Positions 28,705-56,697 of a stretch of 64,000 nucleotides of DNA are shown one piece after another. The stretch's first letter is position 1. Each line of letters opens with the position of its first letter. The notes under the pieces were generated by a model, which ran no database searches, had not been told where the DNA came from, and was given only the letters and a program-made list of their open reading frames with translations. A program made the position numbers and the translations under genes. The stretch covers positions 62,001 through 126,000 of the forward strand of contig JAFCMP010000122.1 in the NCBI GenBank assembly GCA_017506865.1, given 5' to 3'. The stretch is from Tribonema minus. Taxonomy: Eukaryota > Sar > Xanthophyceae > Tribonematales > Tribonemataceae.

Positions 28705-31700
28705 ATGTCACTCGACACGGGTCTGGGAAGGATTGCTGGCGGGTCTCTGGAAGGCACAAGGAAGATCCCTTCGCTGCGAATCCTATGCCTGGATCTCTGC
28801 GCAAGGCACATCAGCAGGCTGGAAAATCTGGGTCACATGTGAGTGCTGCCACGGAGTGTGCATGTTTGAGGCGTGTCTCAGTGCCAGCAAATGAAGTTGT
28901 CAGTATCATCCAGAGTTTACTGTCATCAATGACAACCCAGCTCCAACCGCTAAGGTGATCACGCAGGTGGGTTCTTGGCAGATACAGCAGGGCTGGAGGC
29001 CAGTCTGAGATCGAGAACGGTGTCAGCGCTGGCATGTCGTGCAAGAGTCTGTCAACTGCGGTGGAAAAGCGCTGGAACTAGCCACACACTGCACCCACAG
29101 TGCCAGTGCAGCCGTACTGTAGGGCCAAAAACGGACCCCGACGGTGGTATTGCATCGCACTGTGCAGTCCTCTGTGGCCGACCTCTGAATGTGCTCTACC
29201 GCTGGCTCACAATATGCTAATCACTGGGCCAGCTTACTCAGCAGCTTCGATGTGCCAGCACATGACTCGTGAGAAGCCTACCACTGCGAGACATGGCACG
29301 CGCACCGTTGCATAAGCGCGCACCGCAACCCTCGCCGGAAACCTCGCTGCTCGCTGCCGCACAGGCAATACCATTGCGTGCTGCTGCCATACACCACAAA
29401 ACAGCTGCAAACATGGCATTGCTGAGCTGCTGCCGCGCGCCGCCCACGTGCCTGCGCGCAGGCCTCTGAACATGTACCTGGACATGCTGGAGCGCGCGCA
29501 CACGACGGTTACACCCGAGATTGTGAGCACGCTCGAGCAGCACAACCCCACACTGCTGTGCCGCGAGACAGACGTGGGGTACTGGAAGCCTGTCGTGGGT
29601 GAGTGAGTCGTCGGTGTGTACTGCTGTGTACTCTGGTGTACCGCATAGAGTACATGTGTACGCTGTCTGGCAATGGGGCACTGGATGCATGCTTCAGATG
29701 AGCGATTGACTTGCTGTTGCGCATTGTAAAGTGATGCACAGAGTAGGTCAGGTTGGGTATGCAGTGGTGTTCACTGTAAGTGAATGAGAGTGTTGGAGTC
29801 CATGTTCTGAGCATGTAGCACATAGCAGGTACCTGTTGAAGTATGTTGACCTGTGGTGTACACGCGCTTTCATCCCTTCTCGGTGAAATGCGCGCTAAGT
29901 GACGCATGGCGCCGAGTCAGTTGCTGACCCACCGCGTCGAGGTCTGTGAGTCGATGATCACAGCTACAGTACACCTGCCGCCAGCAATGCCGTGTGAGCG
30001 CGCCCCGCTTTCCTGTGCCACCCATCACCAGAGCAACGCGTGCTGCCCCTCTGCATACATACTGACTGGCCTTTCACGCGCGTACACGCCCCTCAGCAGC
30101 CGATCTTGTGACCAATGAGGAGCACAATGCCCTCTTGTTTATTGTTATCATAACCAATGCTCCATCAGCTCTGCCACACACGCTCTCTGTCCGCCCGCTG
30201 CTCTCCACGCGCCGCCGCCGCCGGAGGGGCACATCCTGCGCCGCTACGTGCCCGCCCCCTTCGCAGCACGGCCCCTATGACAGGACTTGTGCTGGACGAG
30301 CAGCATGGAGCCCCTCCATTGATCAGCGTTATGACCACTGCTCCAGCAACTCTGCCATACACACACACTCTGTCCGCTCTCCCCGCCCGCCTCCGCCAGA
30401 GGGGCACATCCTGCGCCGCTACGTACCCGCCCCCTTCGCAGCGCGGCTCAGCGAAATGGAGCGTCACCACGCGGCGCTGCAGGCGCTGCTGGACCACGCG
30501 AGCGGCGGCAGCGGCGGCAGCAGCGGCGACGATGGCGGCAGCAGCAGCGGCGCACAGAAGGAGGCGGCGGCACTGGCGGCGCTGCACGCGCTGAGCGCCG
30601 CCCCCATGCCGCTGCGCCTCATGCAGGAGGCGGGCGTGGTGAAGCCCGTCTCGAAGCTGCGCAAGTTCGCGGGCAGCGGGCCGCGTGCGCAGGAGGTCAG
30701 ACGATGCTTTGAAGAAGAGTGCCAGCAGCAGCAGCAAGCAGCAGCAAGATCCCAAATAGCGCTGGAACCATCTATTAAAAGAGTGACCTGGAGAAAGTTC
30801 TCAGCACCAGTTGTTGCATGCATACATAGAATAGCACAACGGGCGGCGCGCCTAAGAGGTCAGACGCGGTGACTTCCTTTGACTCGGTCGTAGTGTTTGA
30901 GGCTACTGGCGTTGGGGAGATGGTGTGCATGACTCGGCGATCTGCTGGGCCTTGTTTGATTGTCTGCAGCACTTTGCTTACGGTTAGGGTGCGCCCAGGT
31001 GTTGTACAGGTACCGAGATGCGTCATATCGACAACACTGTGCACACAACCTCAACCTCAAATCGGCACCCAACTTCAGCTGGCCAACTTCAACAGCGATT
31101 CCCCCCCCCGCGCTCCGTCCCTCGCAGATCATGCGGGACGCGGCGGCGCACATCTCACCTCAGCACCCGAACTTCAGCTGTGCATCTTCAACAGGCATTC
31201 GTCCCCGCTGTATCTCGCAGATCATGCGCGAAGCAGCGGTGCTGCGCGAGCGGTGGCGCGAACTTCAGCTGCGCATCTTCAACAGTGACTTCTTTCCATC
31301 GCGCGCTGTCCCTTGCAGATCATGCGCGAGGCAGCGAGCGATGGCGCGAACTTCAGCTGTCCAACTTCAACGTCCATTTGTCCCCGCTGTTTCTTGCAGA
31401 TCATGCGCGAGGCGGGCGCGCTGCGCGAGCGCTGGCGCGAACCTTTGGCGCAGGCGACGGCGCTATCCTCACCTTAGCACCCAAAACTTCAGCTGTTCAA
31501 CTTCAACAACGGCTGGTCCCCCATCGCGCGCTGTCCCTTGCAGATCATGCGCGAGGCGGCGGCGCTGCTCTCACCTCAGCACCCAAACTTCAGCTGCGTA
31601 TATTCAACAGCCATTCGTCCCCGCTGTCTCTCGCAGATCATGCGCGAGGCGGGCGCGCTGCGAGAGCGGTGGCGTGAACTGGTTGCGCAGGCGAGTAAGG

Positions 31701-34700
31701 AGCCGCCCATAGAGGTGGGGCCTGCGCCGGATGGCAAGACCAGCGCGCAGCAGATCATAGAGGGCGGCGCCGCGTGCGAGACGTGGCGCGACGTGCACGT
31801 GTACCTCGAGAAGGTCGAGCAGATCAAGGCACGTACGGTTCAAACCGGTCTTGACTCACTTCCTTGGGCTCGGGTTAGGGTGAGGATTAGGGTCAGGGTT
31901 AGCGTGTATTGTGTCATTACATGTCAGAGATAGCGCGTACACCTGTGGCACGCGTACAGGTACGAGTTTTAGACGCGCGTTTTAACTTGTACCCATGGCA
32001 ACGGAATAACTCGTACGCGTAACCTGTCGTTTGAGGCAACGAGTAAAACCTGCACTGGTCCACTGGCTGATAACGCGCGGTGCGAGTGAAAAAATCTCGC
32101 ATTCTGCGTGCTTTCGCGAGCTTCTGGGAAGGGATCTGGAGCTTCTCGAGAATAAATCCGTTGAAGTTGGGGGGGGGGGTTGGGGCCGAAGTTTTTTGTT
32201 TTTTGACAAAAGTGCGAAGGAGCGTGAGCGTGCGTTGCAACTGCGATGCGAGCAAGCACCGACGAGAACGTATCTTCTATATAGCTGACACCGTAGCGGC
32301 TCGGCTCGGACGCAGTGGCTTCTCATAGTGAGCTTTAGCGAGCTTCGTTTTCACTAACTCAAAGCTGAACGCCACGCTGCGCTGGCCGAGAGCTACTGCC
32401 AAAGAGATGTGCATGTCAGTAAGCTGCATCTACATTGTGCATGCCAGCTACTCAATGCTTTCGTATCTGAATCAGTACATTGCACCGTGTTTCGTGCCCT
32501 AGTAGTAAGCACGCACGGCTTTCGAGCCTTAACGAGCCGCAGACGATTTCCCAAAGCAGATTCAAGCTTCTTGTAGTGTGATACATGAAATAGGACATTG
32601 CTGCGAAGAATCTGGTGAAAGCCATCAAAAGCCCATTGAAACAGGCAAAAAAACCTGTTCAAACAGCAGCAATAAGTTGTTCTACAGGTATACGCGTACC
32701 CGTTGTCTCAGGGCACAGGTTAAACTCGTACCCGTAGCCGCTCTCACCAGTATTTAAATACTCGTACGCGTACTTGTCAAAAATTTTCTCGCTGCGCGCG
32801 ACCTCTTCAACAATGGCACTACGTGCCATCTCTGTTACATGTGCACCGTGTAGTACCTCGAGAAGGTGGAGCAGATGAAGGCACGTGCCATTGAAGGCGG
32901 TTTTGACTCACTTTCTTGGGCTAGGGTTAGGGTTAGGGTTGGTGTTTGTTATGTCATCACATCATTGAGAGCGGCAGCGCCTGCGAGACGTGGTGCAACG
33001 TTTACGTGTACCTCGAGAAGGTGGAGCAGATCAAGGCACGTGACGTTGATTGGTGCTGGGTGACTTGCTAGGGTTAGGGTTAGGGTTAGTGTGTATTTTG
33101 TCATCAGTGTGTATTGTGTCATCACATGTAGACAATGAACCGAGAGAGAGTGGAGCAGAGAGATCAAGGCGCGTACCGTTGGTGGAGGTCCTGGCAGACC
33201 TGCTTGGGCTACGGTTCGGGTTAGGGTTGTGTCACCATATGTGCACCATGCACAATGAGACAGCGGAGCGGACGGAGGCGCATGCATCCGTGCAGGACCT
33301 GGCTAATTGTGCGACCTGTGCTGCGCAACAGAGAAGTGTGCAAAGTGGGCCCTTAGGCGCTTCGCACTGTTGCTGGCAGTGCTCAAACATCAACTGGTTG
33401 TCCTCAATGTAAAGCTGGCTGCTGCTGATGCGCCAGCACCCCTCTGGAATAGCGCTTGGATGATCGTAAGTATTTGTATGAGTTCCAGTACTCAGGTTGC
33501 GTGCAGGCATGTTGCTGGTGGCATGTCTACACACTTGCATTGCATGAGGCGCAGTCATACTTTAATGCCACCGCTATCATTGTGATTGATCGTTACTGAT
33601 TTTGCCCGCACCTCGTGCTGTCAGCACGCAGTGGACCTGTGTTTAAGTTCAGGTTTACAATGATGCACCCACGTGACTCTCCATCTATCGCGCTTCGCTC
33701 ACCTCCTGCGCTGCGCGACAGCTTTGGTAAGCGCATGCGCGCGCTGCGCGAGGACGACCGGCGGGGCCACTGATCCTCACTGGTTTCGCACCTCAATCCT
33801 CATACCCTCATTCTTTTCGCACGCAGTGGAACCGTGTTCGAGTTCAAGTCTACAATGAAGCATCCAGTTGACTCTCTCTTCATTGCGCTTCGCTCGCCTC
33901 CTGCGCAGCGCGACAACTTTGGCAAGCGCATGCGCGCGCTGCGCGAGGACGACCAGCGCGGCAAGAAGAAGGTCATGAAGGGCGGCACCGCGGGCGTGCA
34001 GCCCGGCAAGCTGGCCATGGCGCGCATGACCAGCCCCAAAAAGCAGCTTCAGGGGGGTGCACCCGCTGCCAAACGGCACTTGCAGGTAGCCAGCTGCGCC
34101 TGCGCGCCGGCCTGCCCGCATTCTCATGGGGCATGCGCATGTTGAGATGTATATCATGTCGTCACGTTGTGCTCCGGCCTCGTGTGCTTGCATGCTGCAG
34201 CAAAGCCGATATGTGGGGCATGCGCGTGTTTCGATATACTGCTCCGACCTCGTATATTCGCAACAAAGCTCAAGGCGTAGGCGGAGTATAAGAGCCAATG
34301 TGTGGAAGCGGTGGTTGCTGCCTCTTGTGCATGCGATTGAGGCCTCAGCTTGTGCATGCTCTGCACGCATGGCAGGAAGCGTTGTAAAGACACACGCGGC
34401 GAAGATCAGTGGCGCTGCAACAAACTTCCGCGCGCATAAAGTCATCATTCTGCACCAGCAGCGCCGAGACGGCGCACAGCGCTGCCTGTTCTGTTCAAGT
34501 GTCTGCCTGAAGTCATCATTGTGTGCCGTAACAATGCAGCTGCTGTTGTGCAATGCGCCGCAGGCGCGGCCTGGCGCGGACCGCGCACCAGGCGCAGCAG
34601 CAGCAGCGGCGGCAGCAGCAGCGGCAGCAGCAGCAGCGCAACCGCCGCCGCCGCCGCTGGACCCCGAGGAGCAGCGCAAGCAGGCTCTGCGGGCGAGCGA

Positions 34701-34719
34701 GGACTTCTTCTTCGGCTAG
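28705..34719 (+). CDS. Elongin A-like protein with a TFIIS N-terminal-type domain
   Basis: Six exons: 28705-28838, 29462-29598, 30400-30695, 31637-31828, 33909-34085 and 34564-34719, giving 363 residues. Residues 23-90 match the Elongin_A domain: a BC-box-like 'SLRILCLDLC' (C instead of an aliphatic at the last position), then 'ISRLENLGHMPLNMYL', 'TLEQHNPTLL' and 'ETDVGYWKPV'. Residues ~145-210 resemble a TFIIS N domain ('PMPLRLMQEAGVVKPVSKLRKF', 'REAGALRERWRELV'). Then come 'CETWRDVHVYLEKVEQIK', a basic region and a poly-Ala tail. Elongin A binds Elongin B/C and stimulates Pol II elongation. In animals the TFIIS-type domain precedes the Elongin_A domain, so the order here is reversed. Exon 4 is joined to exon 5 in phase only if its end is a GC donor (AAG|GCACGT); this is the least certain junction. 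Confidence 0.7.
30147..30447 (+). repeat. duplicated exon 3 acceptor region in the Elongin A-like gene
   Basis: Units at about 30147-30276 and 30321-30447 share CACACTCTGTCCGC, then GAGGGGCACATCCTGCGCC and GCCCCCTTCGCAGC. The upstream copy has CCGCCGG where the used copy has CCGCCAG, so it lacks the 3' splice site. Confidence 0.75.
31035..31660 (+). repeat. six-fold tandem array of the Elongin A-like exon 4 acceptor
   Basis: Six copies of CTCGCAG or CTTGCAG followed by ATCATGCG, with exon-type starts at 31128, 31221, 31319, 31400, 31544 and 31637 (spacings 93, 98, 81, 144, 93). Between them lie copies of AACTTCAGCTG...TTCAACA...CCCCGCTGT. Only the last copy reads on into a long open exon; the earlier five are truncated to 'IMREA...' fragments with no donor. 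Confidence 0.85.
31800..33240 (+). repeat. dispersed copies of the Elongin A-like exon 4 end with telomere-like tracts
   Basis: The exon 4 end (CTCGAGAAGGT.GAGCAGAT.AAGGCACGT) recurs near 32856 and 33011, and in decayed form near 33152. Each copy is followed within 30-60 bp by a (TTAGGG)-type tract and then TGTCATCACAT-like sequence: tracts at about 31871-31905, 32921-32941, 33071-33090 and 33208-33227. The array lies in intron 4. Confidence 0.75.
33590..33955 (+). repeat. duplicated exon 5 acceptor region in the Elongin A-like gene
   Basis: Units at about 33590-33760 and 33774-33955 share GCACGCAGTGGA.C.GTGTT, TACAATGA.GCA, GCGCTTCGCTC.CCTCCTGCGC and AAGCGCATGCGCGCGCTGCG. The first copy reads CCTGCGCTGCGCGAC where the used one has CCTGCGCAGCGCGAC, so its 3' splice site is lost and it runs into stops. 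Confidence 0.8.
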
Positions 34720-36326: not shown

Positions 36327-36588
36327 GAACACGGACGCATTTCTCCGCGCGCGCTTGCAAGCCAGCGGCGTCGTCCTTTATTTGCAGGGCCGCTTTCAGC
36401 CCGTCAACGCACTTTCGGGACGTTTACTGTACAAGCTGCGCAGCCGCAGCCAATGGCTGGCCGAATCGGCCACCAGACAGAACCCTGTCTTGAGCCCCCC
36501 ATACGCAGCCCCTGTCACCGCTCCAGCGGTGAGCACGGGCGCAACGGGCAGCGGCAGCGCCGTGGCGCGCACAGGCGGCAGCCGCTGA
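36327..36588 (+). CDS. possible 3'-terminal exon of an unidentified gene
   Basis: After a possible acceptor (GAGGCAG|AG) the frame reads 'ENTDAFLRARLQASGVVLYL', then 'GRFQPVNALSGRLLYKLRSR' and 'QWLAESATRQNP', ends in a Ser/Gly/Ala tail and stops at 36586-36588. The amphipathic, Arg/Leu-rich composition and GC-rich codon use resemble the real exons of this window more than the intergenic ORFs do. No family recognised. It would converge with SNU13, whose stop is 158 bp away. Upstream exons were not found. Confidence 0.35.
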
Positions 36589-36745
36589 CCCCTGAGCTAC
36601 GCCGCAACGGCAGCGAACACGACGCGCCCGATGCGCCCGGCGACAGCGGCGCACGTGCACAAACTGCGGCACAGCGCCTGTGTCTGCACGCGTGTGCGCG
36701 CGGCAACGCCAGACCCCTTCCCCCCCCTCCCACACACCCCCTCGC

Positions 36746-39020: not shown

Positions 39021-39661
39021 GGCTGCGTGACTCTCAAGAAGAGCGTGCACCTATCATTGAGTGATCATCGGCCGAAGCCACCGCTGGAGTGTCTTAATAA
39101 GGTGGTTGGTGGGTGCTAAACACTCTTTGCAAGAGTCTGAGTCTTTGTGGGGCTATTTGAAGGCAAATGCCATTTGAAAACGGGGGGCCGGATCCAGTGT
39201 GTTGCTAGGGTTTACGTCCTACGCAAGCAACTCTCAGCAGTCTGCACTGCGCCCGACGGCTGGAATGTTAACATATTAACATAACCATGCACGCTCCGTA
39301 TGTGTACATCGTAATGCGCTCCGCCAGCTGTTGTGCCAATGACATGCCGACTGTGAAGGTGCCAAATCGGAAGCACGCAGCGTCCTGCAATAGGAATGGT
39401 TGCTTCAGCTTCACACGCAGAGCCCAAATTCGTCGCGACGCATGAACAGCTGCCAATGGTCAATGGATAGCGCACATACTGCGCATAACAGATGCGTTAG
39501 CAGTATTGCACAGAGCAGGCATGCGCGCATGCAGACGGGATGCACAGAGCGTGAAGAAGCAATCGGCAATGACACAAACACATCTGGAACAGGAACATCT
39601 CGCTGTTTCAAGCATGCGCTGGAGCACACACTCAGAGGCTCTGCAGGCCAACGATGGGCAG

Positions 39662-41124
39662 CTACGGCAATTCAACTACAACATCAAAGTTCAAGTTGCC
39701 TGCATCATCCACCCACTTCTCGAAGAACTCTGCATGCCAGGCCTCGTGTTTGGCTTTGAAAAAGTTGCGCCAGCCACGTGACTTGTTGACGTCTGAGCAA
39801 GACTCACTCTGGCGCCTTAAGCTGCTTATCCCGCCCTTGCCCTTGCAAGTCATGGCAAGTAGCTCGCATTACCAGGGTGCCAGCGCATTCATTTACGCAG
39901 TCTACCTTCTGAGAAACGTACACACTTACTCTGTAACTGATGGAGCCTGTCTCCACGCGGACTCGCACAACTGGGTACCACCTGAACCCCCCATAGCACG
40001 TGCTGCCCGGAGGTGTTACTTGCTGGTCTGTGTGACTTGTGACTGCATCGTTGAACGCTGCCTCCAGACTGCTCAGTGACAGCACCTCTCTGAACTCAGC
40101 TGCTGCAACAGATGACTTCGGCCGCTGCGTGTCGCTCGTGTCTTTGAGTATGCGTGGCACATGGGACATTTGCTGCACACTCTGCCAGCCAGACTCGGAA
40201 GCCTTGCCAACGCACAGCAGCGCAACAATGCGGGGCGTCCACTGAGGGAAGACGTCTGTGACGCCTGCGATGAACCCCGTGTCAAGGTACTTGAGCCGAA
40301 TGCAATCGGTGACACTATCGGGCACAGTCACCAGGCCCTGCTGTTCCGCCCATCGCATGGCAACAACGGCTGGGGTGCTCTCCGCTGCAACAGCGAGTCG
40401 GTCATCGCTGAGCAGCGCCACGAGCGCTGCCTCTGGCAGCAGAGTCAGCTGCTGACGCAGCTGCGCGTCATTCATGGCCAACTCCAGATCCCCCGCACGC
40501 CCTATGACTGAGGTCAGAGCATTGCGCAAGTGAAGGCGATGTCGAACACCGCATGGTGCATCAAACATTCGCAGTGCCTCATCCCAAGGCAGGTCTGCTT
40601 GTGCATCCAGCCACTTGGCTGCTAGACAGCGCTGTCTCCACGGCATATGCATCTGCCACTTGTGCTGTGGTGAGCGCTCGCTGTACGGTCAGCTGCTCCT
40701 CTACAGGCAGCTTGCCGTGATACATGGCCCATACTACGTCTTCGAAGGCGGCAACCTCTGCGTCGTCCTCTAGCTCAATCTGTATGCGCACGGGCCTTTC
40801 GGGGCCGGTCCAGCGACTTAGCCTCGTCCGCAGTACTGAGCTGTGAGCAATGAGAACGGCGGCATGGAGCTGCAGCTCTTTGACTGCCTCGCGTACCTCA
40901 GCATTGCGGTCAGTGGCTTGAGCTGCATCGCTGTCTGCGCCCCGTTTCCTTTTCCTGCCCGCGCACTTCCCTCCGTCTGGCATGCTCGCCCTCATGGTGA
41001 TCTCTACAACAACATCCGAAAAGGCCGTATCTCCCCACAACTCATGTAATGTCGGGGTCGGTATAGCCTCGGCTGTCGCAGGTGTACTGACGCTGGTGCC
41101 AGCGCTCCCCATCGATTGAGCCAT
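39662..41124 (-). pseudogene. BTB-BACK family copy D with two frameshifts
   Basis: ATG at 41124, last stop at 39662. The BTB domain has 'LWGDTAFSDVVVEI', a basic insertion ('GRKRKRGAD'), 'LHAAVLIAHSSVLRTRLSRW' and 'MYHGKLP'. A +1 insertion near 40635 breaks the frame at the BTB/BACK boundary; BACK and most of the C-terminal module follow (40613-39804). A 10-bp insertion (ACTTGC duplicated around CATG) near 39850 breaks it again, and the module ends as 'EKWVDDAGNLNFDV'. The 1463-nt length is explained exactly by 11 extra nt. It is the most diverged copy and the only one on the minus strand. Confidence 0.75.
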
Positions 41125-41262
41125 CGCTTTGTGCAGCTAAAAGCCTATGCGCCTCTGTTTGATGTTCTGGGAGCGGAGAGTCACGGTCTTTAAAGTTCAT
41201 GAGTTGCGGGCCGGAGAATCATGATCCGTCCAGTGCAGCGACAACTGGGATGACGATATCAA

Positions 41263-41298
41263 ATGGAAAATATCATGGAAAATATCATGGAAACTATC
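41263..41298. repeat. short tandem repeat
   Basis: ATGGAAAATATC occurs twice and then once more as a variant, head to tail. Confidence 0.8.
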
Positions 41299-42677: not shown

Positions 42678-43036
42678 AGCTTAGGCGCGTGCTCAGCAGG
42701 CTGCCACGTGTGCGTTACTATCATTCTCCATCACGGCAGACGCATTTGTGTCACAAGTGACAATACTTGGAAGCATTTAGAGCATTTCTGTGACAGCTGT
42801 GCATAAGTGTAACAGCGGGCGCCGCGCCGCCATCACGTCACGGTGCTGAAATGCACACATCCGAGTCCAGCTGCACCGGCTGCACCGAACTACCCGCATC
42901 AAAACAAACAGATGATCAGAGCGCAAAGTACATCATCATGGTTGTTGGCGTGGGCAGTGCCATGGTCGTAGTGCGCGTCCCTGCTCACGTAGTCCGCCCA
43001 CCATGCCTCTAACCCCGGGTTAAGTATTGCAAAGAC

Positions 43037-43335
43037 ACCCCTGATGAGCCTTCACCTCACCGACAACGGGATTCAAGCCTCTTCCACTGGCAGCATCATG
43101 ATTCTGTCACGTGGTGATGGCTGCCGCGACGGCGTCAAGGCTGCGGTGCTCCTAGAGCTAGAGGACAATGATGATGACGGCGACACCGACACCCAGGACC
43201 AGGTCCAAGGAGTTCCCATTTCATCCCCTACGCCTGCCAGGTGTCAAGCGTGCCGCCAAGCCCAGCGCAAAGCACAAGGTGCCCATTGGCAAGAGGGGCG
43301 TGGCCAACCCTTTCTGCTGCCACTGGTACAGCAGT
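43037..43335 (+). pseudogene. inverted partial copy of the ORF at 43974-44550
   Basis: This plus-strand stretch matches the minus-strand ORF at 43974-44290: 'LTDNGIQASSTGS', 'AAVLLELEDNDDDG', the ISSPTPA segment and the basic 'AKPSAKHKVPIGKRGVANPF' end. It lacks the N-terminal half with the hydrophobic segment, and its matching parts fall in two different frames (split near 43200), so it looks like a decayed fragment. Confidence 0.65.
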
Positions 43336-43973
43336 GCGCAGCGCAGGCCAATCACAGTTGGGGTACAGGAGAGAACGTACGTGGCGGTGCATACAATGTG
43401 CATGTGACAGGCGCTGCACATGCAAATACGGCCCGAGTCATCCTGCTTGGATGCAGTCAGTGAATACCGGGCGTACGCATGCCGCATGTTGCGTGACGCA
43501 GTGTTGTCCATGTTTGTTTGCAAATAGGGGTTGCTAATTTGCGGATTTGAACAGCCGTTTGAGTCTACCCACCAGATGACTTTTCAGATGTGCCCAAAAC
43601 AACGGCAAACTTTAAGAATTGCTCTTCAAGTTGTGGTGTGATCACATAAAGGTACATGCCGACCATGTCTGTAGACGCCATTGACGTGAGAAACATGCCA
43701 TGGGCATGCACAGCTAGCCACTGCGCGCTTTGATAATATGACGCCGCTTGTTGTAGCTGCTGTGCACAGCGCACCAAGCGCAACTCTTCACATAAGTACA
43801 TGATTGCATGCCCTGCCGCTGTGCCGCTATCTGTCTCGTGCGCCAGTAGAACTACGGTTGCCGTAATCAGAACGGATCAACATATATTGGCGCACATTGC
43901 AGTGCAGTGCAGTAAAGCAACCTGACACACTGGGGCTCATATGGACACCACACCCCTCACACTGCTCTCTGCT

Positions 43974-44550
43974 CTACCCGCGGCGGCAGAAAGGGTTGGC
44001 CACGCCCCTCTTGCCAATGGGCAGCTTTTGCTTTTCGCCGGGCTTGGCGGCGCGCTTGACACTGGCAGGCGTAGGGGATGAAATGGGAACTTCTTGAAAT
44101 TCGGGCAGGTCCTGGAAACCGTCCGAGTCGCTATCGCCACCGTCATCATCGTTGTCCTCTAGCTCCAAGAGCACCGCAGCCTCTATACTATAGTATACAC
44201 CACCGCGGCGCCCGTCACCACGTTTCAGAAGCATGCTGCTGCCAGTGGATGACACTTGAATCCCGTTGTCGGGGAGGCGAAGGCTCAGCAGCGGTGTGTT
44301 CGCGATGGTGTTGGCGGCATGATGGGCGGACCACGTGAGCAGGACGCCTGCTACAAGTATAGCAGCGCCTGGGTCGACACCCATGAGGATGTATGTACGC
44401 TCTGCAGAGCGCGACGGACAGGTGGCAAAGGCAGAGAGTTTGATGCACACGTCATGTCTGTGTGCAGCGAGAACTCGTTGAAGGGAGCGAACACGAAGGC
44501 CAAGAGAAGACTTGAAGGGATCCAGCCAGATCAGGGAAAACGCGTCAAAG
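43974..44550 (-). CDS. unidentified membrane-type protein, 3'-terminal exon
   Basis: The frame is open from a likely acceptor (CTACCTAG|C) at 44550 to the stop at 43974-43976, 192 codons without an obvious in-frame start, so earlier exons are expected. Order: 'SFDAFSLIWLDPFKSSLGLR', a basic stretch, 'RTYILMGVDPG', a hydrophobic segment ('AAILVAGVLLTWSAHHAA', likely membrane-spanning), an acidic tract ('LELEDNDDDGGDSDSDG') and a basic C-terminus ('LPIGKRGVANPFCRRG'). I recognise no family. A partial inverted copy lies 640 bp away. Confidence 0.45.
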
Positions 44551-45651: not shown

Positions 45652-46067
45652 CTATGAAGGTGAATACACGAACTGTTGGAACAAATCTTGATACCCACTC
45701 GCACTGGCATTCGCCGCTGACAGCACCGGTGCTGCGCATGGCAGCGCCGCAGCCACATGCAGCAGCCTGTCACCGCCGCTACATGCCAACGGCGGCGGCG
45801 GCAGCGCGCAGGGCTTCAGGGCAGGCGATATGTCTAATGCATCTGCGCGCGCCGGCGACGGCGACAGCGCCGCGGTGGCAGCGCTCCAGCTGCCGTCGAC
45901 GCACTTGCCGGACCGCAGTCGCGATGGCGCACACTGCGCAGGTTCGGGTGCGCTGTCGTGGTCTACTTCCATCGACACGTCCGCCAGCACGTCTAGCAGC
46001 GCGTCTCTCTCCGCCATCGGCGCATCCCCATCGCCGCCGGCAGAGCTTCGGCCGGCGCATGGGCTGG

Positions 46068-46099
<32 letters not shown>

Positions 46100-49000
46100 C
46101 TGCTGCTGCCAAGGGCACTGCTACTGTCACAGTCAGCAAGGAATGCAAACGACCCAAACAGGGCGCCGCCCCCCCCACTGCCGCTGCCGCCGCCTCCGCC
46201 GCACTGGCTTCGCTGCCGCGCCCCGCGCACCCCCCTGCCCGACGATCGCACCTTTCTCATCCTTCCAGCCCCCCCTTGGGGCTCAGCAACAGCGGCGGAA
46301 GCGGCGGCAGCGCCTGCGGCCCTGCCAGCGGCGCCAGTCATCGACTGCGGCTCGCTGAAGAATCGCCGAATCAGGGTGCTCGGCGGCGCAGCAGCAGCGC
46401 CCAGCGTGCGGCGCCGCTTCACGCGGCTCAGCGCTGCTCGCGACGGCTTGAGACCCCCTTTGACAGTGGACTGCGCAGCGCCGTCGCTGCCGCCGCCGCC
46501 GCCGCTGCCGCTGCCGCCGAAGAACTTGCTGGCTGGCGCCGAGGCGGCCGACGGCGGCAGCGACGGCGCGGCGCCGCTGTTCTCTTTGTCATCCGGCGCC
46601 GCCGCTGCGGCGCCTTCGGTCGCCATCGGCAGCAGCGGCGCCATGGAGTGCAGCCAGTCCAGCGCGGTGTCCGCGGCAGCGGCCGCGCCGCCGCTGCCGC
46701 GCTGAGCATCGTCATCCGCTGCCGCCGCTGCCGCGACGCCCGCGGGCGAGCCCAGGCTGTAGAAGAAGCTGTGGGATGCGGGTGATGCGGCAGGGGGGTC
46801 CGCGCGCTGCTTACCCTTGCGCGCTTTGCATGCCGTCCACGGCGTTGTCGCGGCGTTGCGCGGCGCCAGCGGCTGCGCGCGGCAGGTCAAGCACGCGACG
46901 ACGGGGGAGGGGCGTTTGGAATTTACTTGAGTGCACCACATGCAACTGTGCGCGCACACCAGTTGATGATGAGTGCGCCACATGCCTCATAGGGCGTGTG
47001 CTTCGCCACAGCAGCTGACCGTTGATTACTCACCCTCGGTTAGTGCTTGGAGAGCACCGTCCCGAGTACGCTTCTGTCATGAATCCACAACGTACTGAAC
47101 CCAAAGCCAACGGACACCCATGACAAGCACAGCGCAGCAGATACAGTATTGAACGCTGCTTTGAACGGCTTGTAACTTACTCGATTCATAAAGAGCCATT
47201 GTTCATCTTAGACACATGGAGAAACTGCCAAGGCGCGGGGCCACTCAAGCACATGTGCAGGGTGAGCATGCATACATCAACAGCCATTGCAGCCAGCTCA
47301 AATTCTTGAAGCAAGTTTGCATGTAACTTCAGCGTGCACTTCAATATACCTCGAGGTACCTATATACATACACGTTGCATGTGCCACACCACCGAATGCA
47401 TGGCGCACACGTGCTTGACATCGCACATGCCTCAGGCAACTTTGTTGAAAATGAAACTACTAAAGAGCTACGTTCAGAAAGGAGAAAAAAATATTGTCTG
47501 CTGATAATAGTAAAAAGTTATGCGTCAATGTGTGCTCCACGTTACCTTTCGTGTCATCGCCCGCGAAGGCGCCGCTGCACCAGCGTACACCACCAGCGGC
47601 GCGGGAGCGGGCGCAAAGAACTTATTAATAGTGCGCTGCCCGGTCAGCGACGCGGGGGTGCTCTTCACCGCCCACGCGCCCCCCCCGCCCTTCGCCCCCC
47701 CCCCTCCCCTTGTTTGGCCCCTACCGGGCCCCCCTGAGGGGGTGGCGGGGGGGCGGTGCGCGGGCTGAAAGACCTCCGATGGGAAGAGCTTTCGGGTGAC
47801 CGGGTCCATGATGCCGTCCGCTATGGCGCGCGCCTGGGCGTCGGGAACGGGCGGTCCCAGGAAAGAAAGGTCCTCGCCGAAGTCGTGGTCCTCGGGAAGG
47901 GGCGTGAGGTGCACGACGGTGCGCGAGACGGGGTCGAAGACGCGCTGCAGCGCGGGGGACGGGGCAGCGGGCGTGCAATGTAAACGTCTCTGTCGGCATG
48001 AGACGCATGCAGCTCGATGCGCAGTTCATTGGGTGCTTGTGTGAAAACAGCAAATACTTGGGCCGAAGACGCGCTGCAACGCGGGGGACGGGGCAGCGGG
48101 CACGCGGTGTGAACGTCTGCCGGCATGCGATGCATGCAGTTGGGTGCGTAGTTTATTGGGTGCTCGTGACTCGTTTGAGGTGATGTCCATTGTGTACATT
48201 AGCGTGTACATTTGGTGAAGACGCGCTGCAACTCGGGGGAGCGGCGCGCCGTGTGAACGTCTCTGTCGGCATGAGCCGCATGCAGCTTGATGCGCAGTTT
48301 GCTGGGTTCTCGTAACTCATTTGAGTGATGTGTATGAATGAAATTAGCATGTATACGGGGTCGAAGACGTGCTGCAACGCGGGACAGGGCAGAGTGAGGT
48401 TCTGAAGGCACGGCTCAGATGGTGCCCAAGCTCTGAAGCTGCTTGGTAGCACCACTGGCCAAAATTGGACTGTTGCATGCTTGCTCCATTGATTGCCTGT
48501 ATGATGAGTTGTGAAGGTAAATGTTCTGCTTGCGCTGACACATGAGCCATACTGTTCCTAAGTGTAGGGCAAAAACTTCTCTCCACACTATGTGCATATG
48601 CTTCCATACTGACGGCAAGACATCGAAGGAAAAGCATATCTGCTGCTTCATTGATTCCTGCCACCAAAGCAACTCATGCAAATCTAAGACGCAATCAAGA
48701 AAACGAAATAAATCATTGTCCACAACGCTCCACAATCACCTGCAAAGCATACATACCTGATGCCGGAATGTGGCCATTGCGCGCCGCAGCGCGAGCTCGT
48801 AGTCTGCAGGCACCGTGGAGCCAAACTCAAAGCGTATCGCGCGCATGGCCCGTGCGACATCGCCATGCTTCGTCGCAAACCTGCAGAGCGGGTCGGCCAC
48901 GGCGGCAGCGTCAGTACTAGCCTTGAACTATGCAGTCGGCCACTAGGAACAAAAGCAGTTTTACTCTTAAGGGGACTTTGCATTGTAGAGAGCTGCTGCT

Positions 49001-52000
49001 GACTAGCCTTTTCCACCACATAGACATTGAGGTGAACATTGTGACAGTAGACTGACACAGTCTTTTGCTGCCAGAAGTGATTGTATTGTGGTCTCTCTAC
49101 CGGGCAAGCGTAACTGCCGTGACCGTCATAGGAGTGGATTGCGATTGGCAGCGCACACAAACGGCTGCGCCATGCTGTGCGCGCTGCAATGCGCTGTATT
49201 CAATAGGCGGCGCCGTGTTGAGCCAACCCGCCGTCTCATGAGGGACAGTGTAAACGAGCTGCAGTGACCGTCAGCACCGGCAGTGGCTCTGCAGCAGCGC
49301 TACATACTTCAACATCAGAAAAGAGAGCTCACAGTGATCTGCTGACGGCCAAGGAAAAGCACGCGTTGCTTCTTCAAACCATGGCAACACACACTTGAGA
49401 CTAGCAGCAACAATCTGGGTATCACCTGATGTTCTTATATGTACCGTTGTTGCCGCCATCATGCAGGGGGAGCACAGGTAGGACACCGCGATTGCGCATC
49501 GGGCCAGGCACTCTGCGGACTGCCTCATCACCTGTGCGCACGCTTCAGCCCTATCCCCAGCACTGACGGCAGGTAGTCACAGCCCGACAGCGCGCAGGTC
49601 AGCAGCAGCGCATCCTCTGCTGCTGCGCTGCTGCCACCGCCACCGCCGATGCCGTTGCCGTCGCTGCCGCCGCCGCCGCATTCATCACCGTCGCTGCCGC
49701 TGTTGCCGCCGCTGATGCTGCTGCCGCCGCCGCTGCTGCCGCTTGCGCACCTGCGGAAGTCCAGCTCGTCATTTCTCTCCGTGAAAACTTCGTGGAGCGT
49801 CACCTGCTGCCCCGCGGCGTCCTTGCCGAGCTTGAAGAGCACGCGCGTGCAGCCGAACAGCAGCAGGTCAGAGTCCTGCAGCGGCGGCAGCGGCAGCGGC
49901 AGCAGCGGCGTGAGCCCTACGTGCAAGGTGGTGCGCATGCGTGCACGCAGCCGCGCAGCAGAAGCGCCGGAGTGTGCGCATCAGCAGTGGCGGCAGCGTG
50001 TACAACAGAAGTAACAGTTGCACAAGGTCGATCAAGGTCTCCGGGGCAGCCGTGGGCAGAGTTATCATGGCTACTGGCAATGTGCAGCGGCCTGGAAGCT
50101 CACATTCCCTGTGGTCTACTTAGTGTCGGATAGTCACCGCAACTATGTAGAGTAACACAGAGATTAATAATCTTTGGACTCCACGAAGCACTGCATTGAA
50201 TGCAGCGTCCCGTCTGCCAAATTTCTCGGCTTGGCAGCAATTGAATCTCCAACGCACCTATGGAACTAGGTCTTGGTGGGGATCATGGCAGTGGAGGTGG
50301 CATGTGACGTGCCTACTTCAATGGCGTAATCATGCTGCTGCTGCGCGGACATCACCATCACATCCGCCAAGTCACTGCAGCACAGGTAGCCCAGCTACAA
50401 GCCTACGTCCTCTTGTCATGTGCTGCGGACAACGCGCTTTGTCGAAGGTCGAAAGGTCGGTGGCACATTGTCCATCGTCATGAGCACGACATTCCATCGT
50501 CGTACTTCATATGCTTAAGTAGTCTGCCTCTCTGACCATTGTTACCACGCGACCGATCATCGGCGCAGAGGTATGTCCCATCCGCCACCACACACTCAAC
50601 TGCAGCAGCACAGCAGTGTACCATCATACTTGAACTGCGTAAAAAGCACCATCAACACTCTGACTGCGGTGATCACGAGGTCGATCTGCCGGCTGCGGCA
50701 CAGGTAGGCCTGCTGCGCAGCAAACTACAATCGCGCTTCACTGCATGATCACGCACGCAAGGTCCACATCAACGCGCTCACCTCGGTGATCACGAGGCCG
50801 CTGCGACACAGAAAGCCCAGCTGCGCAGCATACCAAAGTCACACTTCAACCGCATGATCACGCCATTGACGCGCTGATCCCAATTAGAGTTAGGGGTAGA
50901 ATCAGGGTCAGGGTTGCGGCTATGCAGCACGAACAAAGCCCACTTCAGGGCTGACCTCAGCGATCACGAGGTCGATCTGCCCGCTGCGACACATGCAGCC
51001 CAGCTGCGCGTCCGCCTCGTAGAGGTACTTGTGTAGGCCCGCTGCGCAGTCACACTTCGACTGCATAATTACGCCATAAAAGCGCTGATCCCACTGACCA
51101 ACGAACACAAGGTCCACTACGGGGCTGACCTCAGTGATCACGAGGTCGATCTGCCCGCTGCGGCACAGGTAGCCCAGCTGCGCGTCCGCCTCGTAGGGCG
51201 CGACCACGAAGCGCGCGCCGCCGCGGCTGCGCGCCGCCGCGATGAACTGCGCCGCCATCGCCGGCGTCACGTCCACCGCCTTGATGAAGTGCGCGCGCGC
51301 ACCCGCCGTGTCGCCCTGTGGCGCGTGCAGCATGTTGAAGTTGTCTTTTAAAAGTAGGGTATGCCGTCTGTTGTCACTTTCAAGTATGTAGTACCTGCTG
51401 AGCATCTGCGAGGCGTTGTGCTGCTGAAGCATTGGAACGTTACGCTCACATTCATGACACGCACATTCGCTTGCAGCGATGACCACTGCCCTCGCGTTGC
51501 TGTGCGATGGTGATACATCAAGTTACGTCGTGTTCAGTTAAGTATGATGCGTCATGCCGGACTGCCCGCGAATGTGGCATACCAGGCATGCGCCTTATGG
51601 CTGCAAGAGTGACATGCAATGGGCTCTGGCTGAAGCAACCGCAGAAATCTATCAACTAGAGCAAGCGTCACATTAGTAAGCATGCTTGGACGCCCTACTT
51701 CTGATCGCTGTACCAACCAATATGTTTGAGTGGTTACAGCAGTCCCAGCAATATCAAACATCACAGGGTGGCTTTGAGTGTTACATGCAACGGTCCCTTC
51801 TTTTCATGGACCGGAGGGCTTTATCATGTGTCAAAGAAGTATTCAACTATAACAGAAGATGAGATCATTCGTAGTTTGGCAGTATGGGCTGAGTAGCGTG
51901 CCACCTGCTGACCGTTCACGTCTGTTCAATCTCAAGCACCGCTGCTTCATAAAAGCGGTCTGGAACGTGAAGAAGAGTCACAGCGAGGGGACCCTGATTG

Positions 52001-52993
52001 TAGTTGACTTGTACTCTGCGCAGGCGTTTGGTGCTACACGGGGGTTCGGTGCTGTTGAAGCTGCTGCACTCACAAGTGCGTGCCGACCTGAATTGCCCAA
52101 AGCACTGGATGTGCTTTGCGGTGCAACCACTCAACGTGCTGCTTCCAAGCTCATACACTTCAAGAGTACGCACCTACTTTTGCAGATATACTAGGCGGGC
52201 CAGTTCATGCCGATCAGATGTGCCAAAGCGGCATGCGGTGTGAGCATTCAATTTAATCGTTAAGATCAGCACGGCTTGTGCAGCGGGCAATGTGCCTCAC
52301 AGAGCAGCACATAGCAGGTAGAGATTCGGCTGTACTTGAGGCAGTGCCCATAATCGATGTGTCGCAGTTCTTATCAAACTGCTGACTTGCGACAGTCATT
52401 GGATCCTCTGTGTACCTTACAGCCTCGCATACAACAGCCAGTCATGCAGTGACAAAGGCATTGTGCAGCGAGAGTACTGGGCTCCTCGGTGACTTCAGAT
52501 GCGCGCCTGTCAGCAAAATGCTGTCACTTTGTATAACACATAACTCAGCGACTATCTGGGGATTTATTGACCTTCTAGCAGAACAGCTTTGGTAAAATAG
52601 GAGTACACTGATGGTCAGTGTCCATACTTGATGAACTTCAGTTTTACATACTTTGATCAGACCCACCTCTCTCAGGCACTGCTCCGCGCGCTTCCTGCTC
52701 TCCTCCCTCTTCTCCGCTCTCTCCTTCTCCTTCCCCCCCTTCGCAGGCAAGTAGTCTCCATCGAACACCAGGTACGGCTTGAGCCCAAAGTGCAGCAGCA
52801 TGTCGAGGCGGCTCAGCGCAAACTTAATGTGTTTTTCCGTGGGCACACCTGTGCACAGCTCCTCGGGGCAGGTGTACACGGCCTTGTGCAGCCAGCAGTA
52901 CGTGTCCACCCCCACCCTCAGCCCCGACAGCTCCTTCAGGTGCACGTCGCGGGTGACAGGCCGCAGCGCTGGCAGCAGCCCGGTGATGCCCAT
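45652..52993 (-). CDS. EXO1: exonuclease 1 (FEN1/XPG family)
   Basis: Six exons with agreeing phases: 52667-52993, 51130-51315, 49532-49875, 48757-48880, 47546-47944 and 45652 to about 46872, roughly 866 residues. N-terminal 'MGITGLLPAL', 'GVDTYCWLHK' (D30), 'LVFDG' (D78), 'VAPYEADAQLGYL' (E151, D153), 'EDSDLL' (D172, D174) and 'LSGCDYLPS' supply the acidic metal ligands of this 5'-3' exonuclease. A ~45-residue Ser/Gly insertion sits before 'LSGCDYL'. Exon 5 ends with 'GQRTINKFF', a good PCNA-binding PIP box. The Gly/Ala-rich last exon contains 'SKFF', like the MLH1-interacting motif of yeast Exo1. The exon 6 start is uncertain (46872 or 46806). Role: mismatch-repair excision and end resection. 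Divergent with RAD51. Confidence 0.93.
47931..48405 (-). repeat. tandem copies of the EXO1 exon 5 acceptor region
   Basis: In the gene's direction, units ending at 48405-48355, 48290-48215, 48120-48050 and the true junction at 47944 share CCCCGTCCC, (G/A)TTGCAG or GCTGCAG, then CGCGTCTTC. Between them recur AGACGTTCACAC and CTGCATGCGGCTCATGCC-like sequences. Only the copy at 47944 opens into the full exon. Confidence 0.8.
50340..51190 (-). repeat. tandem copies of the EXO1 exon 2 donor region
   Basis: The exon 2 end (CAGCTGGGC..CTG...GGGCAGATCGACCTCGTGATC) at 51130-51190 recurs inside intron 2 at about 50955-51030, 50785-50830, 50665-50715 and, badly decayed, 50370-50395. The first copy still reads 'YEADAQLGCMCRSGQIDLVI' followed by GAG|GTCAGCCC. 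Decay increases with distance from the true junction. Confidence 0.8.
50886..50917. repeat. degenerate telomere-like tract inside EXO1 intron 2
   Basis: TTAGGG-like units (AGAGTTAGGGGTAGAATCAG, then GGTCAGGGTTG) lie between two of the duplicated exon 2 donor units. Confidence 0.55.
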
Positions 52994-53272
52994 GGCGACA
53001 GGTGTGTGCTTGCGTGGTCGTCTGCAGCTGCCAGCAGTAAGGCGTAATGTCACCGAGAATCGTCATTCAGCCTTATCATAGCTATCATAGGCTCTGCACT
53101 GTACAGCCTGTGCACAAGGCAGTGCTCGCTTCTTCAGCTCCGGAATCTCCAACGGTCAGCAAAAAGTGATTCGCGCCAAAACATCTGCCACACACGACAC
53201 GCTCGCGAGGCTCCAGGAGCTGGTGGAGTGTGAGACTGCTGGCGTTGCTGGAGCCTCTGAGCTGGAAGAAAC
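52994..53272. promoter_or_regulatory. divergent promoter, EXO1 / RAD51
   Basis: 279 bp between the start codons. It contains an E2F-type site (53170-53181). No TATA box is clear. The spacing implies one shared promoter for the two genes. Confidence 0.65.
53170..53181. promoter_or_regulatory. E2F/DP-type binding site in the EXO1/RAD51 promoter
   Basis: TTCGCGCCAAAA on the plus strand (TTTTGGCGCGAA on the minus strand) fits the E2F consensus TTTSSCGC. It lies 177 bp from the EXO1 ATG and about 92 bp from the RAD51 ATG. E2F control of S-phase repair genes is known from plants and animals; use here is inferred. Confidence 0.6.
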
Positions 53273-56200
53273 ATGGCAGCCATGCAGCAGCAGCAGCCTG
53301 AGCACATGATGGAAGCGGAGGGCAACGCCATGGCCCCGGAGGGAGAGGTGAGCGTTGGAGCTTTTTGGTGCGCTGGAAGGCCCATGTGCCAGCAAGCTTG
53401 CCGGACTTGGATCGTTGGCTTCTGCTTGTCCATGTTGTACTGGCCAATGTCTTATTGTGGTGCTTCAACGTCGCATGCCGTGCGGATCTCTCCGCTGCAA
53501 GCTCTGGCCTGGCTGACCTCGCATGTGTCTCACCTTCACGAAACAGGTGTCGGCATGCTTTCACCACATCACGACCCTTGAGAGCCATGGAGTTAACAAG
53601 ACGGATATTGCGCGGCTGGCGGACTCTGGCTTGTGCACGGTGGAGGCGGTGAGTGCTTGACAGTGTGTTTTGGCGCGAGGATATCTTGGCGCTCATGGGC
53701 GTGGAAAGTCGTGTTGTTGTGGCTGCAGTTGCTTAACAGGTACGCCAGTTATGGTGCCCTCGTGCTTGCTTCCTGCTCACTCTCGAAGCAATGTCACAGC
53801 AGGCTGTCAGCACCTTGAGCTGACGTGCATGTTTCTGAGCTCATTGCACAGAGGTGCTTGCGTTCCACCCTCGAACATTCCGAGCACCAAAAAACGCGTT
53901 CACTTTCTGCATCAGTGCCTCCACTCGCCGCATTGACTCAATGCTGCGTCTATTGCTCCTCCCCCCACCCCCCATTCCCCCACCCACCAGGTCGCGCACG
54001 CGACGATGCGCAGGCTGACGGAGGTCAAGGGCATCAGCGAGCAGCGCGCGATAAAGCTCAAGGAGATCGCCTACAAGCTTGTGCCCATCGGGTTCACGAC
54101 TGCAAACCAGCACCTGCAGCAGCGCCAGGACCTCATTACCCTCACCACGGGGTCTAAGGAGCTGGACAAGCTGCTGGCGGGCGGCATCGAGACAGGCTCG
54201 CTGACCGAGGTTAGGGTTAGGGTTATGGTTATGAATGCGTACTCTTGCGGCTGTCTGTTCTGTCTTTGGGGGCTCAATGATTGAAGCTACGGCTGGGAGT
54301 AGGGTGCTCTCATCACCATTTGAGCTCCGTTTTGCTGACTGAGGCAAGGGTTCAAGTCAGGGTACTTTCGTGCTCGTCTGTCCTCTGCTTGAGGGGTCAC
54401 TGACTGAAGCTTGATTCAATTGCTGAACAGTAAACACGCAGCTTTTTTGACCAGCTGCATCGGCGTCACCTCCTCACGCACGCCGCGCGCACGCCCCGCG
54501 CGCCGCAGGTCTTTGGCGAGTTCAGGACGGGCAAGACGCAGCTGTGCCATACGCTGTGCGTGACGTGCCAGCTGCCGCTGGACCTCGGCGGCGGCGAGGG
54601 CAAGGCCATGTACATTGACACAGAGAGCACGTTCCGCCCGCAGCGCCTCGCCGCGATCGCGCAGCGCTACGGCCTCAACGCGGACGATGTGCTGGAGAAC
54701 GTCGCGTACGCGCGCGCGCACAACAGGTGAGGCACTGCCGTTTTTGCCTATTTTCCTGGTAGACTGGTAGATACTTCGAAGGTTTATTGTTAGTAGCCTT
54801 GGTACTATTTTTTGACAGCATTCCATGTCATTATGATTAATTGGTGGACGGCATGCGCGCCAGTGTCAGCGCTTGCAGGTGTCTATCAGGGCAAGGACTT
54901 GCGCCGCTCTGATTCAGAGTCGAGGGCGTAGCTACGCTCAGCAGCGAAGGGTCGGTTTTGATGATGTGTTGGATTGCCGCGTGAATGCATGCACGCGCGC
55001 CCAGAGGAGCTGTGTATCGTTTAGTGGCTACTGTCGGCGTGCGCGCGCGCTAACATCAGCCTTGCATGCGCTGTCAGTTACACATGAAAGTGCATGTCGT
55101 CCGTGCAAGACCCCATGTTGTCCTGGGCAGGGCACTGCACTGCCACGCACTGTGGGCTCGCTTGACGTTGATGATGCGCTATAGGGCGCGGCTCTGCGCA
55201 TGCGCGCATGTTTGGCATCACAAAACTCATTTTTTGTGTTTTTGCCGTGCTGATTGTGCATTTGCCTCAGTGAGCAGCAGATGGACCTGCTGAAGATGGC
55301 ATCGGCAATGATGGCAGAGGACAGGTGTGTTGGTACATATTTGTCATTGATTGTTTTGCCGTTTGATTGTGAACGTACGCATCAAGGCCTAGACGTTGGC
55401 ATAGGTTGGTGACAAGCGCGCATGTTCACAGAACTGCTATCGTGAATGTTGACCAATGTGCGCTAGCATTCGCAGTGAGATTGTGCACTGGTGCTACAAG
55501 TAGCTGCGCCGACACGCGTATGCCTCATTCGGCACTGGTTGGAGGGACAGGCACAAACACGTGCTGTATTGCCTGCATGACCGTTGACGGCACACAGACA
55601 AGCCTGAAGCAATTGGATCAGGTGCATGCCAATACGCTCATTCTACCTCAGAGTGTAGTGGTGACTTGTCTGCATAGGACCGCACTGTCAGTCGCCATTA
55701 CTCAAACATTGGGCTTGGTATGTACCGTATGTACATGATGACAGGTTCCGGAGTGTAGTGGTAGAAAGTCTCCATACAACCGCATCAGCGGTCACCTACA
55801 AGCGCATTGGCGGTTGCCATTATCAACGAGCCGAGCAATTTGGCAATTGAATTTGCACATGATGACAGGTATGCGCTGCTGGTGGTGGACTCCGCGACGG
55901 CGCTGTTCCGCACGGACTACAGCGGGCGCGGCGAGCTGTCGGAGCGCCAGATGCAGCTTGCGCAGTTCCTGCGCCAGCTCACGCGTATGGCGGAGGAGTT
56001 TGGCGTGGCTGTTGTCATCACCAACCAGGTACGCATGACTTGAAGGCAGCTGCTATGTTGTCTACTACTTCATCGCCATTTGCAATGCTCTTGGCGTGGC
56101 TGTTGTCATCACCAACCAGGTCAGGGTGAGGGTTGAGGTTAGGGTTAGGGTTCAGCTTAGGGCATGACTTGAGGCGACTGCTACTTCATCACCGTTTGCA

Positions 56201-56697
56201 AAGCTTCATGGTGGGGGTTGTGCTGTCGTTGACTTCCATGACCATCATGTTCAGTCGACTTTCATCGTCATCACTCATACTTCGCTGAATGCGGTGGAGA
56301 TGAAATAGCGAAAGCTTATGGTCATTTGCAGACGTGTACGTGTAGCACGCCTCATTGTACCACATGCCACCAGCGTCCACATCTGCAGCTTTCCACTTCG
56401 CCGCAGCTGTGGCAAACTTCAAGGTTGTGCATATCTAAACCTCCCCCCCCCCCACCCCACCCCACCCCCACCCGCCCCCCTCAGGTCGTCGCCAACCCGG
56501 ACGGCATGTCGTTCGCCAAGGACGCGACCAAGCCCATCGGCGGCAACATCATGGCGCACGCGAGCACGACGCGCCTGCGCCTGCGCAAGGGGCGCGCCGA
56601 GAACCGCGTGTGCCAGGTCTTTGACTCGCCGACGCTGCCCGAGAGCGAGGCGCAGTTCTCGCTGAGCGACTCCGGCATACAGGACCCCACCGACTGA
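53273..56697 (+). CDS. RAD51: RAD51 recombinase
   Basis: Seven exons with agreeing phases: 53273-53347, 53547-53648, 53991-54209, 54509-54726, 55271-55324, 55869-56028 and 56485-56697, giving 346 residues. The N-terminal HhH domain reads '[19 protein letters not shown]'; then '[20 protein letters not shown]' and '[20 protein letters not shown]'; Walker A 'GEFRTGKT' (135-142); '[19 protein letters not shown]'; Walker B 'LLVVD' (226-230); '[14 protein letters not shown]'; L2 region '[16 protein letters not shown]'; and '[20 protein letters not shown]'. This is a true RAD51 rather than DMC1 by overall similarity, though I cannot exclude DMC1 without an alignment. It forms filaments on ssDNA for strand exchange. 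The exon 3 donor is the first GTTAGG of a telomere-like tract, and the exon 6 end is duplicated in intron 6. Confidence 0.95.
54208..54232 (+). repeat. telomere-like tract forming the RAD51 exon 3 splice donor
   Basis: Exon 3 ends GAG at 54209 and the next bases are GTTAGGGTTAGGGTTATGG. The only GT that keeps the conserved 'TGSLTE|VFGEF' junction and the phase is the first GT of this tract. Confidence 0.8.
56003..56215 (+). repeat. duplicated RAD51 exon 6 end with intron start and telomere-like tract
   Basis: GGCGTGGCTGTTGTCATCAC plus CAACCAG|GT occurs at 56002-56030 (true junction) and at 56094-56121. Both are followed by GCATGACTTGA.GGC..CTGCT and TTCATC.CC.TTTGCAA. The second copy has an insertion of TTAGGG-type units (about 56120-56160) between the GT and GCATGACTTG. 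Either GT could serve as a donor; using the second would insert intron sequence and is unlikely to be productive. Confidence 0.85.

Follow-up and report, generated by a model that had tools for sequence, protein, structure and literature searches.

Copies of exon-intron boundaries in introns of the yellow-green alga Tribonema minus, and their possible origin by tandem duplication biased to splice junctions

The closest described relative of the structures reported here is the RdRp gene of potato, in which a single tandem duplication across an intron-exon boundary created a new intron, verified with reads (PMC4974935). We describe arrays of boundary copies in introns of Tribonema minus (Xanthophyceae, a yellow-green alga), found in a stretch of 64,000 nucleotides (positions 62001-126000 of contig C122 of assembly G000, called the window below) and in further stretches of the same assembly. 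The two have in common a direct duplication that crosses the boundary, the potato one carrying a 3' splice signal (PMC4974935). The potato duplication, however, is one event in one gene that yielded a new intron, whereas in Tribonema there are many events, at 5' and 3' ends alike, in arrays of up to six copies. The Tribonema copies also appear to remain within the old intron and decay, unlike the potato duplicate that became a new intron (PMC4974935).

Tandem duplication near splice signals is likewise the starting point of the AGGT intron gain of Rogers, as described in PMC4974935. That model predicts exon-derived introns with exon copies at opposite ends (PMC4974935), an arrangement that is rare here: the upstream exon end recurred in the last half of the intron in 2/87 introns and the downstream exon start in the first half in 1/87, against 13/87 and 10/87 for the junction-copy arrangement in the same introns. 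Introners likewise bring a genome-wide change of intron content. They are elements that insert copies into many genes (PMC9860276), whereas all three arrays that we searched against the whole genome matched their own place only, in a DNA search that skips very common words.

Duplicated mutually exclusive exons are local whole-exon duplicates that lie in introns under coding constraint. The Tribonema copies resemble them as local exon duplicates in introns, but contain partial exons and bear no sign of constraint (38:41:46 changes over the three codon positions). A literature search, mostly at the level of listings, turned up no description of junction-copy arrays. Single boundary-crossing duplications are already known (PMC4974935).

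Boundary copies in the window and in other stretches

Comparison of the window with itself by blastn returned nine local direct-repeat arrays, which fit nine exon-intron boundaries. An earlier sequence-only reading of this DNA had claimed recurrent duplication of eight boundaries while naming nine, and the nine arrays match those it named. The observation is confirmed: junction-spanning copies are present in introns of the window. At 14 curated junctions, of which 8 lie in the window and 6 in a kinesin locus, the repeats align across the exon-intron boundary, and 26 copies lie in the adjoining introns. The arrays in the window are as follows.

15865-16209, plus strand: array at an apparent exon end near 15874; the copies, which include roughly 10 bp of exon, lie near 15943-16034, 16040-16130 and 16103-16209 (self-blastn, read by eye)
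26559-26978, minus strand: array where an exon of a coiled-coil-like gene ends; the real donor follows 26916, and the intron downstream holds two decayed copies (self-blastn, junction alignment)
30150-30447, plus strand: array at the exon 3 start of a TFIIS-N/Elongin-like gene; the copy at 30150-30272 is decayed, with GG in place of its AG; the AG of the real acceptor is at 30398-30399 and the exon begins at 30400
31056-31694, plus strand: six-copy array where exon 4 of that gene begins; upstream of the real exon, which starts at 31637, lie five decayed copies with CAG in each
31748-33229, plus strand: array at the exon 4 end of the same gene; the real copy is at 31748-31924, with decayed ones near 32841-32940, 32982-33089 and 33144-33229
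33611-33962, plus strand: array where exon 5 of that gene begins; the copy at 33611-33767 is decayed and the one at 33806-33962 real, the exon starting at 33827
47931-48392, minus strand: array at the start of EXO1 exon 5; the real exon begins at 47944, and three copies, all decayed, lie near 48059-48130, 48216-48275 and 48354-48392
50650-51196, minus strand: array at the end of EXO1 exon 2; the real donor follows 51131, and three copies, all decayed, lie near 50929-51023, 50751-50827 and 50660-50719
56000-56155, plus strand: array at RAD51 exon 6 end; donor after 56028, copy 56091-56121 (31 bp identical), telomere-like insert directly after the copied GT

The first of these is presumed to be the boundary named earlier as the end of dynein exon 4; it was assigned by elimination, and the gene identity is putative. 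This array and the one at 26559-26978 fall outside the range of positions given with the earlier observation. By self-blastn, the arrays at EXO1 exon 5 start and RAD51 exon 6 end extend to 48383 and 56121, respectively. The donor marked at the exon 4 end of the TFIIS-N/Elongin-like gene is provisional, as its join to exon 5 is out of frame. The sequence-only reading had further described segments of 60-150 bp repeated head to tail. The repeats are indeed direct, but their period is often longer (median 208 bp in 26 junction arrays, with a median aligned copy of 83.5 bp), and at the alignment level contiguity held in 3/26 arrays. The unit at RAD51 exon 6 measures 91 bp and is contiguous by eye; its alignment is shortened by decay of the intron part and by the telomere-like insert.

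Beyond the window we sampled 23 stretches of the assembly (158 Mb in 554 contigs), 17 of them picked only by their contig number; of the others, two border the window, two were selected for RecA hits and two for kinesin Pfam hits. Six short pieces (L001-L006) contained in L012 and L022 were left out of the counts, as were two stretches of the contig-number group, L007 (C1:40001-50000 of G000) and L015 (C60:40001-50000), in which the guanine-cytosine content exceeds 0.7; that value suggests that the assembly may contain foreign, perhaps bacterial, contigs. The analysed sequence comes to 269 kb out of the 158 Mb, from one assembly and one strain. Junctions were taken mainly from a self-trained gene finder, seeded on the window genes and iterated over the fetched loci. 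Its first setting drifted to tiny exons, and stronger site penalties were adopted; it recovered most RAD51 exons and misplaced some boundaries within arrays. Some introns were curated by hand for the count of 38/48 arrays and for the strict intron-only count given below.

Among the 190 junctions predicted in the 269 kb, 25 had the exon end repeated in the intron next to it, spread over 10 of 20 loci, and the pattern is present on many contigs. In the two kinesin loci picked by Pfam, 14/15 arrays were anchored at junctions (10/11 with the other finder setting). Across the loci outside the window, 9 held more junction arrays than mid-intron arrays, 4 held fewer and 1 was tied.

Decay of the copies and use of the splice sites

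Sequence divergence indicates what the copies are. When changes were polarised via multi-copy arrays, those specific to the exon were distributed over codon positions as 2:2:20 (P 1e-6) and those specific to the copies as 38:41:46 (P 0.68). It follows that the exon copy is the working coding sequence, while intron-side copies drift freely. Constraint on the copies, first hinted at by a third-position excess with one alignment per junction, was overturned by this polarisation. The intron parts of copies are more diverged than the exon parts, about twofold just inside 5' sites and less at the 3' side, as expected when both intron lineages drift but mainly one exon lineage does. Taken together with the excess of direct over inverted matches and the three arrays that match only themselves, the copies look like products of tandem duplication followed by neutral decay, and not like a mobile element or an alternative exon.

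The sequence-only reading had also stated that only one copy is intact. This is true of the coding part but not of the splice dinucleotide, as GT or AG is kept in 23/26 copies by hand count and 14/20 by automatic count, in overlapping sets. It had offered as one explanation that copies are retained because they supply decoy or alternative sites. Selection for copies as decoys, enhancers or regulated alternative sites could draw on this dinucleotide retention and on arrays of up to six, but copy-specific changes show no preference for a codon position (38:41:46), the proportion of dinucleotides kept agrees with neutral decay (23/26 against a neutral 0.83, P 0.61), and identity does not peak at the junction. 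We therefore consider such retention improbable, and that part of the earlier proposal is not supported.

RNA-derived evidence on site choice comes from the EukProt entry P0121, a protein from an assembled transcript and 98% identical over the match, which joins 29598 to 30400 and bypasses the decayed copy at exon 3 of the TFIIS-N/Elongin-like gene. The same entry bears on the idea that the copies are stages of intron gain, with duplicated AGGT segments becoming introns, or extra mini-exons. In favor of intron gain, the potato RdRp intron arose by boundary-crossing duplication (PMC4974935), and at L029 6440 two of three copies have GTAAGC one base past the copied AG. The Rogers arrangement is rare, however (2/87 and 1/87 introns), the copies show no coding constraint, and P0121 skips the copy at exon 3. 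This alternative appears to us a shade less probable even than selective retention. In a kinesin intron of L029, decayed copies of an acceptor near 6045 and near 6288 both read AG-C-GTAAGC and resemble a recursive splice site. Copied acceptors were considered as recursive splice sites in general and rejected, only one curated junction showing such a form.

Local matches were direct in 184 cases and inverted in 3, with multi-copy arrays counted several times. Together with the local placement of the copies, this orientation is better explained by tandem duplication at the DNA level than by RNA-templated copying, in which pieces of pre-mRNA near splice sites would be reverse transcribed and rejoined beside their source. 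That process would sit well with an exon reach of at most 95 bp and with 23/26 arrays being non-contiguous at the alignment level; on balance we regard it as very unlikely. An artefact of assembly deserves next to no credence, as most copies are diverged, the differences are partitioned by coding function, and the pattern is found on many contigs.

Association of the arrays with splice junctions

We slightly favor, over the other explanations taken together, that local tandem duplication is biased to splice junctions and tolerated since the exon-proximal site is used. Recurrent local duplication would copy segments spanning exon-intron boundaries, preferentially there. An event on the 5' side would double the exon end with the intron start, and one on the 3' side the intron end with the exon start. 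The copy joined to the exon would stay functional, and the intron-side copy, removed by splicing, would decay neutrally. Tolerance may stem from exon definition, which would pair sites across a short exon so that the nearest site wins despite GT or AG in most copies. Repeated events would build arrays and lengthen introns. The bias itself would be mutational and not selective, for example through breaks at paused or R-loop-bearing splice junctions.

Several counts bear on the bias. Windows of 80 bp had a copy at 12/74 5' junctions and 12/71 3' junctions, against 40/690 mid-intron positions and 1/250 exon interiors (in the last case with the copy in the neighbouring intron); shuffled targets in the same test gave 0 matches. 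A first count of arrays found 33/43 anchored at junctions where uniform placement predicts 14.6. With curated introns the figures were 38/48 against 17.4 expected, and 33/41 against 13.4 with the other finder setting. Copies at junctions are more readily recognised because the exon is conserved; for this reason the uniform model was simulated forward under the same detection, with uniform duplication, purging inside exons and neutral decay. It placed 37.9% of arrays at junctions overall and 29.5% of those detectable in intron sequence alone; the observed number for the latter was 24/34 (18/28 outside the window). Arrays of at least 85% identity, counted whole, were junction-anchored in 5/7 cases against 2.3 expected.

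The main competitor is uniform tandem duplication in all non-coding DNA, with exon events purged and junction events remaining recognisable for longer via their conserved exon half, so that no bias is needed. Its simulated fractions (38% and 29.5%) fall below the observed 38/48 and 24/34, and the copies reach less far into the exon than they would under uniform placement. Exon reach exceeded 95 bp in none of 26 junction arrays; for a reach above 100 bp, 0 in 26 compares with 3.2 expected if the unit equals the aligned copy (P 0.02), and with the unit equal to the period 6.4 of 18 would be expected (P 0.0002). On the other side, uniform duplication is in keeping with the flat per-base coverage and the strict intron-only count detailed below, with local repeats also in predicted intergenic DNA (6.7% vs 13% in introns), and with the lower divergence of the exon parts of copies relative to the intron parts, which would follow if, in the exon part, the copy alone drifts. 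We judge it rather unlikely, though clearly the most serious of the alternatives.

Local repeats cover 13% of introns, 6.7% of predicted intergenic DNA and 12.3% of predicted exons overall (6,486 bp). Of 52,771 exon bp, 2,944 belong to repeats with both copies exonic, and a single repetitive open reading frame in L009 contributes 2,362 of these; with it removed, 582 of 48,226 exon bp remain. Of the 3,542 covered exon bp that are not both-exonic, 2,638 are no more than 100 bp away from a predicted junction. Duplication within exons is much rarer than in introns. The sequence-only reading had made its case depend on duplications being less common inside exons and in mid-intron. By windows they are rarer in both (1/250 and 40/690), but per-base coverage within introns is flat. 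The link to junctions appears in the anchoring of arrays, not in raw repeat density; the copies themselves make up part of the mid-intron coverage.

Several points weigh against the favored reading. Going from the junction into the intron, the per-base coverage by repeats stays level, at 0.13-0.17 for most of the initial 450 bp. Under a strict rule, by which the intron-only match itself must touch the boundary, the count is weak: 14/32 against 8.7 expected (P 0.016), 11/28 against 7.6 outside the window (P 0.07), and 2/7 against 1.6 for arrays of at least 85% identity. Ten of the 20 loci with junctions lack any junction copy and the arrays cluster by gene, and the P values are optimistic because such arrays were treated as independent. 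Junction positions depend mainly on a home-made gene finder. The RNA-derived evidence amounts to one junction, and the P0121 transcript retains the next intron. Exons of more than 400 bp come partly from possibly foreign loci (L009, L026), and the median exon length is alike with and without copies (187 bp vs 192 bp, P 0.36).

Long exons enter the argument as follows. None of 28 junctions on exons above 400 bp had a copy, compared with 25/162 on shorter exons (P 0.03), which is in line with exon definition. Introns at junctions with copies are longer than those without, at a median of 1227 bp vs 673 bp (P 5e-4).

The earlier proposal of a genome-wide duplication process active at splice junctions is borne out in part, by the 38/48 arrays against 37.9% simulated and by recurrence on many contigs, and is held back by the flat per-base coverage and the weak strict count. 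A junction bias of the duplications is likely, but not proven. More tentatively, and at rather less than even confidence, we suggest that junctions are duplication hot spots, where a process coupled to transcription or splicing would break and duplicate DNA within about 100 bp of exon edges; it would leave neutral copies at about 1 in 8 predicted junctions, with exon definition hiding the copies and introns growing from their ends.

Carrier genes, telomere-like repeats and implications

Two of the genes that carry arrays were identified with some precision.

53273-56697, plus strand: RAD51, seven exons, 346 amino acids, used as splice-site anchor; exons 53273-53347, 53547-53648, 53991-54209, 54509-54726, 55271-55324, 55869-56028 and 56485-56697
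45655-52993, minus strand: EXO1, exon outline, some joins by eye

Both names had been given from the sequence alone, and both are upheld. RAD51 translates cleanly across its seven exons, with Rad51A of Tribonema minus as the best database match (95% identity), and EXO1 is backed by a Pfam scan and by protein relatives. A protein search for an annotated Tribonema EXO1 gave no Tribonema name among the 120 proteins listed, and the EXO1 joins therefore rest on relatives; by string search, the exon 2/3 join agrees with P0123 and P0124 and the exon 4/5 join with P0124 and P0128 (2/4 relatives each). Two other labels fared less well. The protein labelled Elongin A scored 20.0 bits against the Pfam Med26/TFIIS helical bundle, where the cut-off is 20.6, and two dynein-like exon pieces had no Pfam match. 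A scan of the window with Rfam at gathering thresholds gave no match. The NCBI model of Rad51A (P0001) uses an earlier exon 4 acceptor, with 18 extra residues before VFGEF (window 54455-54508) that are absent from P0002 and P0006; these are either a model error or the product of an alternative acceptor.

Telomere-like TTAGGG runs occur in introns at window positions 54210, 56119-56155, 31872-31902, 32918-32940 and 33069-33089, and the RAD51 exon 3 donor itself reads GTTAGGGTTAGGG. In 81 kb of predicted introns, TTAGGG-type 10-mers occur 91 times in sense and 49 times in antisense orientation; intergenic DNA has 31 in 84 kb, and predicted exons have none in 53 kb. Sense and antisense repeats do not differ in position within introns (P 0.80). 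Exact (TTAGGG)5 has 2303 + 3123 matches in the genome, overlapping ones included.

Among the few inverted repeats seen is a 455-bp duplicate of 76% identity in the window (42917-43341 / 43962-44404), which includes a predicted coding exon. A pair of predicted genes that look alike and have long open reading frames, at 39804-41136 (minus strand) and 59418-60890 (plus strand), have a common C-terminal motif close to WVDDAGNLNF and are possibly paralogues.

If the arrays prove to be genome-wide, whole splice-site modules would have been duplicated naturally a great many times, each duplicate with its own decay clock. The arrays would reveal which of two near-identical splice sites is used, whether exon definition operates here and by what route introns lengthen. 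They would also supply candidates for intron gain by boundary-crossing duplication, of which the potato gene is a documented case (PMC4974935). A duplication process biased to junctions, if true, would tie splicing or transcription to genome instability.

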